From positions 9,595,026 through 9,659,025 of the forward strand of contig NC_053406.1 of NCBI RefSeq assembly GCF_016859285.1: DNA of 64,000 nt, given 5' to 3'. The notes below the pieces were generated by a model. That model ran no database searches and was not told the origin of the DNA. It saw nothing but the letters and a program-made list of their open reading frames with translations. The translations under genes were made by a program, and so were the position numbers. The stretch comes from Xiphias gladius (Eukaryota; Chordata; Actinopteri; Istiophoriformes; Xiphiidae). Positions 19,201 through 22,200 of this stretch are shown piece after piece; within the stretch, counting starts at the first letter, position 1, and every line of letters begins with the position of its first letter.

Positions 19201-22200
19201 ATACAAGAGAAATAATACTGCTATCTGTAATGTAATTTTGATTGATTCATGATAAATCATCATGATTTCTAATTCAGCCTGTTTTTAATGTGTTGACTGA
19301 ACCACTGAGAAAAACTATAAGAAGTCAACCTTAATTTTTCTTTTTTATGGTTCTGGGTGTCTTGTCAATCGGGCATGTCATGTACACTTAAATGAGAACT
19401 TTGATTCATTGCTGTGTGTGATGCATTCTCATAAATAATGCTCATAATAAGTCCTAGTCTGAGATGCTTGAACCAATTTATAAATCAGTGTATGAGGTAT
19501 ATTAAACTGGGGTAACCATAACAACAAAACGAACCTGACCATGGGCTAAACTGACCACTGCACATGTATAATAATACCATATGCATATCTGCATTTCTCT
19601 GTAGCTTTTACCTGGCAGAGATCTCCATGGCTCTGGGTCACCTGCACCAGAAGGGTATCATCTACAGAGACCTAAAGCCTGAGAACATCATGCTCAACAG
19701 CCAAGGTGTGTGTGTGCCTGTGCGTGTGTGTGAAATCACTCCGCCTGTATTACAGCCATTTCTATTATAATGAATCATTTGTAAGCCAGTCAAAATGAGA
19801 CAAGCATTAGATAAGGTTAAATGATTAGATTGCGCCCATGTGAAGAGCATGAACGTGTGTTCACCTGTGCAGGAGGAGAACTTTTCATGCAGCTGGAGAG
19901 GGAGGGCATCTTCATGGAAGACACAGCCTGGTGAGCTTTGTTCATTTTCATATTGTTGTGTGGCTTGAACCAAATGTAACAGGTCTTTAATAAACTTTAA
20001 TTTCTTGGCAGACCATGAGTTTATCCTGCAATGAAATGGCTATGAAATTTTATGTTAGGACACCTCAGACATACTTAAACCAATTTATAAATCAGTGTAT
20101 GAGGTATATTAAACTGGGGGTAACCATAACAACAAAACGAACCTGACCATGGGCTAAACTGACCACTGCACATGTATAATAATACCATATGCATATCTGC
20201 ATTTCTCTGTAGCTTTTACCTGGCAGAGATCTCCATGGCTCTGGGTCACCTGCACCAGAAGGGTATCATCTACAGAGACCTAAAGCCTGAGAACATCATG
20301 CTCAACAGCCAAGGTGTGTGTGTGCCTGTGCGTGTGTGTGAAATCACTCCGCCTGTATTGCAGCCATTTCTATTATAATGAATCATTTGTAAGCCAGTCA
20401 AAATGAGACAAGCATTAGATAAGGTTAAATGATTAGATTGCGCCCATGTGAAGAGCATGAACGTGTGTTCACCTGTGCAGGAGGAGAACTTTTCATGCAG
20501 CTGGAGAGGGAGGGCATCTTCATGGAAGACACAGCCTGGTGAGCTTTGTTCATTTTCATATTGTTGTGTGGCTTGAACCAAATGTAACAGGTCTTTAATA
20601 AACTTTAATTTCTTGGCAGACCATGAGTTTATCCTGCAATGAAATGGCTATGAAATTTTATGTTAGGACACCTCAGACATACTTAAACCAATTTATAAAT
20701 CAGTGTATGAGGTATATTAAACTGGGGGTAACCATAACAACAAAACGAACCTGACCATGGGCTAAACTGACCACTGCACATGTATAATAATACCATATGC
20801 ATATCTGCATTTCTCTGTAGCTTTTACCTGGCAGAGATCTCCATGGCTCTGGGTCACCTGCACCAGAAGGGTATCATCTACAGAGACCTAAAGCCTGAGA
20901 ACATCATGCTCAACAGCCAAGGTGTGTGTGTGCCTGTGCGTGTGTGTGAAATCACTCCGCCTGTATTACAGCCATTTCTATTATAATGAATCATTTGTAA
21001 GCCAGTCAAAATGAGACAAGCATTAGATAAGGTTAAATGATTAGATTGCGCCCATGTGAAGAGCATGAACGTGTGTTCACCTGTGCAGGAGGAGAACTTT
21101 TCATGCAGCTGGAGAGGGAGGGCATCTTCATGGAAGACACAGCCTGGTGAGCTTTGTTCATTTTCATATTGTTGTGTGGCTTGAACCAAATGTAACAGGT
21201 CTTTAATAAACTTTAATTTCTTGGCAGACCATGAGTTTATCCTGCAATGAAATGGCTATGAAATTTTATGTTAGGACACCTCAGACATACTTAAACCAAT
21301 TTATAAATCAGTGTATGAGGTATATTAAACTGGGGGTAACCATAACAACAAAACGAACCTGACCATGGGCTAAACTGACCACTGCACATGTATAATAATA
21401 CCATATGCATATCTGCATTTCTCTGTAGCTTTTACCTGGCAGAGATCTCCATGGCTCTGGGTCACCTGCACCAGAAGGGTATCATCTACAGAGACCTAAA
21501 GCCTGAGAACATCATGCTCAACAGCCAAGGTGTGTGTGTGCCTGTGCGTGTGTGTGAAATCACTCCGCCTGTATTACAGCCATTTCTATTATAATGAATC
21601 ATTTGTAAGCCAGTCAAAATGAGACAAGCATTAGATAAGGTTAAATGATTAGATTGCGCCCATGTGAAGAGCATGAACGTGTGTTCACCTGTGCAGGAGG
21701 AGAACTTTTCATGCAGCTGGAGAGGGAGGGCATCTTCATGGAAGACACAGCCTGGTGAGCTTTGTTCATTTTCATATTGTTGTGTGGCTTGAACCAAATG
21801 TAACAGGTCTTTAATAGTTTAATAGTAAAAGTTTAATTTCTTGGCAGAATATGAGTTTATCCTGTTATGAAATGGCTAAAAAATTTTATGTTAGGACACC
21901 TCAGACATACTTAAACCAATTTATAAATCAGTGTATGAGGTATATTAAACTGGGGGTAACCATAACAACAAAACGAACCTGACCATGGGCTAAACTGACC
22001 ACTGCACATGTATAATAATACCATATGCATATCTGCATTTCTCTGTAGCTTTTACCTGGCAGAGATCTCCATGGCTCTGGGCCACCTGCACCAGAAGGGT
22101 ATCATCTACAGAGACCTAAAGCCTGAGAACATCATGCTCAACAGCCAAGGTGTGTGTGTTTGTATATGAGGGTGCCTGTGAAGAAATTAACTCAAACTTT

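Follow-up and report, generated by a model that had tools for sequence, protein, structure and literature searches.

The tandem array of kinase catalytic-loop exons assembled within the rps6kb1 gene of Xiphias gladius is probably, though by no means certainly, a local assembly error in one teleost copy of this gene. The array occupies 19471..22149 of the window, by which we mean the whole 64,000-nt stretch of DNA analysed (NC_053406.1, C7:9595026-9659025). Either a fault in the assembly or a gene copy that was broken recently explains the locus more plausibly than a new splicing device. The sequence by itself would not choose between a misassembly and a real rearrangement, neither of which is proved, and the weight that we give to each is a matter of judgement rather than of computation.

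Structure of the rps6kb1 locus and of its exon array

The gene extends from ~16.2 kb to 24.96 kb of the window on the + strand. S6K1 is the best match of its exon peptides among solved structures, S6K2 not being among the listed chains, and this agrees with the name rps6kb1 proposed in an earlier sequence-only reading of the same DNA; the assignment to S6K1 over S6K2 would rest on the N-terminal and C-terminal matches together with background knowledge. Residues 47-65 of human S6K1 had no match by tblastn either in the window or in the S6K1 paralogue on C17 described below. The locus is composed as follows.

~16236..18046, + strand: 5' exons of rps6kb1 (one of them at 17930-18046), found by tblastn with human S6K1; the start codon is putative and the exon 3-4 peptide matches S6K1 in the PDB
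18229..18297, + strand: exon 4, ending in phase 0, the last exon found ahead of the array
18298..19470, + strand: intronic left flank, the expected place of the exon encoding AMIVRN...LEYLSG
19471..22149, + strand: exon array
19605-19705, 20213-20313, 20821-20921, 21429-21529 and 22049-22149, + strand: the five F exons (101 nt each, FYLAE...YRDLKPEN..., catalytic loop)
19873-19930, 20481-20538, 21089-21146 and 21697-21754, + strand: the four G exons (58 nt each)
19471..20077, + strand: unit 1 (first F and first G exon), starting in the middle of a G-F intron
20078..20685, + strand: unit 2 (second F and second G exon)
20686..21293, + strand: unit 3 (third F and third G exon)
21294..21913, + strand: unit 4 (fourth F and fourth G exon)
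19706..19731, + strand: unit-to-unit junction region, two short GT tracts right after the F donor, the same in units 2-4
22049..22149, + strand: fifth F exon, with a different intron after it, up to exon H
22415..24959, + strand: downstream exons of rps6kb1, from HVKLTDFG... to the C-terminus EHLRMNL

The alternation of five F exons with four G exons had been noticed before, and we reproduced both the period of the F exons (608, 608, 608 and 620 bp) and the length of the G-F pair (159 nt, phase 1 in and phase 1 out). All array exons have AG acceptors and GT donors, and the 20 nt before and the 8 nt after each exon are identical among the five F exons and among the four G exons. The near identity claimed for copies 1-4 was likewise borne out: with unit 3 as the reference, unit 1 departs from it at one base, within a G run, unit 2 has a single substitution, and unit 4 has a 12-nt insertion together with 7 substitutions, every one of these unit-4 changes lying inside 21816-21880. 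The last copy (21914-22149) is one base apart from unit 4, at 22082 within the fifth F exon, and this change is silent. Repeats of such length are not due to chance, and the near identity of units 1-3 indicates that the copies are very young, homogenised or artificial. An old and stable tandem amplification kept by selection is therefore scarcely credible; the open frames are all that speaks for it, against single changes among units 1-3 over ~608 bp, introns included, and a C17 paralogue that carries no array.

The differences of unit 4 are crowded into 65 bp of intron, the sequence on both sides being identical within the unit. This pattern looks like a switch between two sequence versions, and from ~21816 in unit 4 onward the sequence is probably native, with the version changing there; the fifth F exon is probably the native copy. 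At its other end, the array opens with an F exon that has no G ahead of it, and the left flank passes directly into the middle of a G-F intron at 19471.

When the assembly (690,834,319 bases in 1298 contigs) was searched with the repeat unit, five of the 11 matches were the array itself and the other six were exon-sized, with 80-87% identity; among these 11, no other high-identity copy was found.

The missing exon and the reading frame

The kinase-domain exon set of the assembled gene is incomplete. An exon encoding AMIVRN...LEYLSG, which we take to be the kinase stretch from the C-helix to the hinge, should follow exon 4 and precede the first G exon, and it was not found on either strand of the window. 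Its 24- and 26-residue halves had no match in the six frames of the window with up to 9 and up to 10 mismatches, respectively. Motifs of 7-10 residues, allowed up to 2 mismatches in the same six frames, gave two matches, at 51875 and 26828, which were lone and short and were taken as chance, as were the best hits of a loose tblastn of the two halves in the window (E 0.44 and 0.50). Because the remaining exons of rps6kb1 were located by their match to S6K1, the loss can be placed at the left edge of the array. The left flank (18298-19470) has a single further match in the assembly, of 73% over ~105 bp, on C23. We rejected the idea that this flank goes back, with divergence, to the repeated introns or to the intron that follows the fifth F exon, since 97, 25 and 126 of the 200 shuffles made for each comparison, with bases permuted within 50-bp blocks, scored as high.

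In the assembly as a whole, the search for the missing exon gave 38 matches from the best 48 candidates scored. The close ones lie on C17 (100%) and C15 (84%), the other listed matches reaching at most 58% identity. These close matches belong to other genes and not to the rps6kb1 of the window.

C17:22745000-22754900: S6K1 paralogue with an AMIVRN...LEYLSG-type exon, a single G exon and a single F exon
C15:30775000-30784000: more distant S6-kinase gene, probably S6K2 on our assumption, with an AMIVRN...LEYLSG-type exon, a single G exon and a single F exon

In the C17 paralogue, one exon, read as ~148 nt and phase 0 to 1, encodes AMIVRN...LEYLSG, and a single G and a single F come after it; the single-copy statement covers the kinase-domain exons. 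At twenty ~3-kb loci around the missing-exon matches, no near-identical tandem duplication (period from 100) was found. Outside this assembly, a 26-base degenerate catalytic-loop pattern had a single match in genome_contigs, in CAIRHD010000379.1, a contig filed as a Bacteroidales MAG, whose first 300 bases are by eye unlike an S6 kinase in frame 1. The viral_contigs search gave 0 matches.

The lost exon has consequences for the reading frame, in that exon 4 leaves in phase 0 and the exons that could follow it are entered in phase 1 (G and H) or in phase 2 (F). Between exon 4 and exon H, only 22 of the 512 ordered subsets of the nine array exons stay open, and 490 hit a stop. Every one of the 22 starts with a frame-shifted G exon, 17 of them later reading G and F in the right frame, and the AMIVRN...LEYLSG exon is possible in none of the 512. 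With an entry in phase 1, as the missing exon would give, 40 of the 512 subsets are open and in frame, including the ten choices of one G and one F. These ten choices give a single identical peptide, and thus copy choice would bring no diversity to the kinase even if the array were complete. Neighbouring homologous exons of equal phase, which are expected of mutually exclusive exons, are present; the copies do not encode different versions of the segment, and as assembled the upstream exon (exon 4, phase 0) does not join either copy in frame.

A working array would suppose that the missing exon exists in the fish and was lost from the assembly, and that splicing picks one G and one F, or several in frame. 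The 40 subsets left open by phase-1 entry, ten G-then-F pairs among them, and the equal splice-site sequences of every copy are in its favour. However, the exon of the window's gene was not found among the best 48 candidates scored in the assembly, the choice of copy leaves the protein unchanged, and each extra pair would add 53 residues to the catalytic core. We consider such an array very improbable, and even when it is pooled with the old amplification considered above the two readings together remain most unlikely.

The sequence-only reading had pictured an essential kinase in which any number of copies could be spliced in frame and splicing would pick one copy of each exon. In-frame splicing of the copies holds given phase-1 entry and fails as assembled, where exon 4 is left without a normal in-frame partner. 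The choice of one copy is not supported by the assembled sequence, the preceding exon not being found, exon 4 being blocked and the ten choices yielding one peptide. The word essential is weakened by the S6K1 paralogue on C17 with its single-copy kinase-domain exons. That account had not included the missing exon before G, the mid-intron start, the lack of a G before the first F or the frame block at exon 4. Its caution about an assembly error was well placed.

Probable misassembly, possible rearrangement and a second duplication

We propose that the true locus probably consists of exon 4, the AMIVRN...LEYLSG exon, one G and one F, like the C17 paralogue. The stretch holding the missing exon would have been dropped from the assembly, and its place would have been taken by head-to-tail copies of the 608-bp G-F segment that seem to represent a second sequence version; this version may have come from the other haplotype or from error-laden reads. 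Both this source and the placing of the cause in the assembly, rather than in a real mutation in the fish, are what we infer; the array itself, the lack of the preceding exon, the start in mid-intron, the block of the frame and the structure of the paralogue are direct observations. Misassembly is favoured by the failure to find the preceding exon in the window, with close assembly matches only on C17 and C15, by the subsets of the array, none of which can hold this exon and most of which reach a stop, by the start of the array inside an intron, and by the single-copy C17 paralogue. Moreover, a second near-identical, GT-bounded exon duplication of ~600 bp lies just past the window, and false exon gains with missing exons have been published (in passages of PMC9516828 and PMC9516821).

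This second tandem duplication has a period of 635 bp and lies at C7:9659725-9661047, just 3' of the window and ~43 kb downstream of the array, in the next gene but two or three from rps6kb1. It doubles one 228-nt, phase 0-0, in-frame exon of a class C receptor gene, and its edges are GT tracts of 56, 50 and 80 bp. Of 583 bases compared between the two copies, 5 are different; they all fall within the exon, with one Glu-to-Ser change, and the 355 other bases show no difference. The full unit was found only in these two places (2 of 14 assembly matches). We scanned 18 stretches of 9-10 kb (178,902 bases; periods 60-6000, at least 40 shared 24-mers), ten of them around the window or at S6-kinase genes and eight arbitrary. 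In this small and non-random sample a duplication of such a kind was present in one stretch, the one with the 635-bp period, and absent from the other 17. N was absent from 17 of the 18 stretches, and the remaining one ends in an N run of at least 1,988 bases. The nearby duplication is equally compatible with a genuine process driven by GT tracts and with a systematic error.

The class C G-protein-coupled receptor gene itself spans the end of the window, from 62352 to ~4.9 kb past it (ANF_receptor match), and is presumably CaSR-like or of the olfactory type. A Pfam scan of ten peptides from the window gave matches at E <=0.001 for nine, some under the curated cut-off, and none for one peptide near 0.5 kb. 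Among the matches, a tubulin lies upstream on the opposite strand and an acetyl-CoA transporter lies downstream. At 51 kb there is an ATP-pyrophosphatase-type domain, and at 62 kb a receptor ligand-binding domain; we take the neighbouring genes to be VMP1, TUBD1, SLC33A1 and GMPS.

Since the array starts in mid-intron and not at a unit junction, two separate joins, either false or new, must be assumed. Between units, the join lies after the F donor, in GT tracts, with 10 nt common to the intron after the fifth F exon. At the left join, 9 of 13 bases match just outside the repeat, which was seen in a fraction of 0.0018 of 200,000 random pairs, the 13-base span having been picked post hoc. The array could have arisen from two versions laid in series by the assembler, from microhomology-mediated copying, or from a small circle that was reopened elsewhere and reinserted. 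A pure assembly-graph loop was rejected as the full explanation, given the differences between the copies and a shared GT tract of 10 nt at the junction; a tract of this size is shorter than the overlap that assemblers usually need to join. Against a misassembly, the window has no N bases and, with 17 of the 18 stretches also free of N, the sequence is fairly contiguous here; the copies have private differences, not expected from a pure graph loop; and the unit junction shares only the ~10-nt GT tract with the intron after the fifth F exon. Why the unit-4 differences are crowded into 65 bp is not explained by this reading.

The main rival, possible but in our judgement less likely than misassembly, is that the array is real in the sequenced fish, where a recent complex rearrangement would have multiplied the G-F segment, deleted the preceding exon and broken this copy of rps6kb1, possibly on just one of the haplotypes. 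The route would be template switching mediated by microhomology, or else the amplification and reinsertion of a 608-bp circle, and the C17 paralogue would cover the function. This would agree with the unit junction in short GT tracts, the matching bases outside the array at the left join, an array start permuted with respect to the unit junction, as for a circle opened elsewhere, the private variants in the copies, the existence of a paralogue carrying the missing exon and the similar GT-bounded duplication nearby. However, at least two joins and several copies would be needed in a very recent event, units 1-3 differing by single bases, and the matched flanking exons read as conserved. Moreover, such mutations are rarer per gene than errors in draft assemblies. 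Unlikely in our view is the more specific proposal that, at GT microhomology, the 608-bp segment formed a circle or was copied repeatedly and then reinserted in tandem, with the preceding exon deleted and one of the two S6K1 paralogues silenced, and that the 635-bp duplication arose likewise, which would make the region a hotspot of microsatellite-driven exon amplification.

Known exon duplications and significance of the array

Passages of PMC9516828 report false exon gains within genes of vertebrate assemblies, sometimes with nearby exons missing, as in GABRG2 and NPNT; they are mostly found at gaps and sometimes come from wrong gap filling or unsupported joins. False exon gain and missing exons beside false duplications are described as assembly errors in passages of PMC9516828 and PMC9516821, and according to the abstract of PMC8848313 gap closers often insert inaccurate sequence. 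As in the cases of PMC9516828, the rps6kb1 array consists of extra exons that are nearly identical, belong to the same gene and share one scaffold, and neighbouring gene sequence is missing beside them, namely the AMIVRN...LEYLSG exon. Unlike those cases, it is tandem with a 608-bp period and has no N between copies. A tandem array like it does not appear in the passages of PMC9516828, PMC9516821, PMC8848313 and PMC6868369.

Tandem duplicated exon substitution (abstract of PMC9741552) also involves adjacent homologous exons of compatible phases; however, the events described there are mostly ancient, whereas the rps6kb1 copies are near-identical, all ten G-F choices among them encode the same peptide and the exon leading into them was not found. 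An RPS6KB1 isoform with cassette exons 6a-6c (passages of PMC7729450) is similar in having extra exons in the same gene that alter splicing, but exon 6c has a premature stop and these passages do not describe the cassette exons as copies of the catalytic-loop exons. Searches of the literature on rps6kb1 exon duplication, fish included, yielded no report of such an array, a result that does not show that there is none. When unequal exchange or microhomology repair duplicates part of a gene in tandem, the copies lie head to tail and share a short sequence at the junction. Both features are present in the rps6kb1 array; in contrast to such duplications, its 5' end abuts intron sequence that is unrelated to it, and the exon expected ahead of it is gone.

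If accepted as it stands, the assembled locus would yield a wrong model of a central growth-signalling kinase gene, in which exons are added and one of the kinase domain is lacking, and would wrongly suggest that exons had been amplified. A real array would be a very recent example of exon amplification within a gene, at short GT repeats, in which the neighbouring exon was lost.
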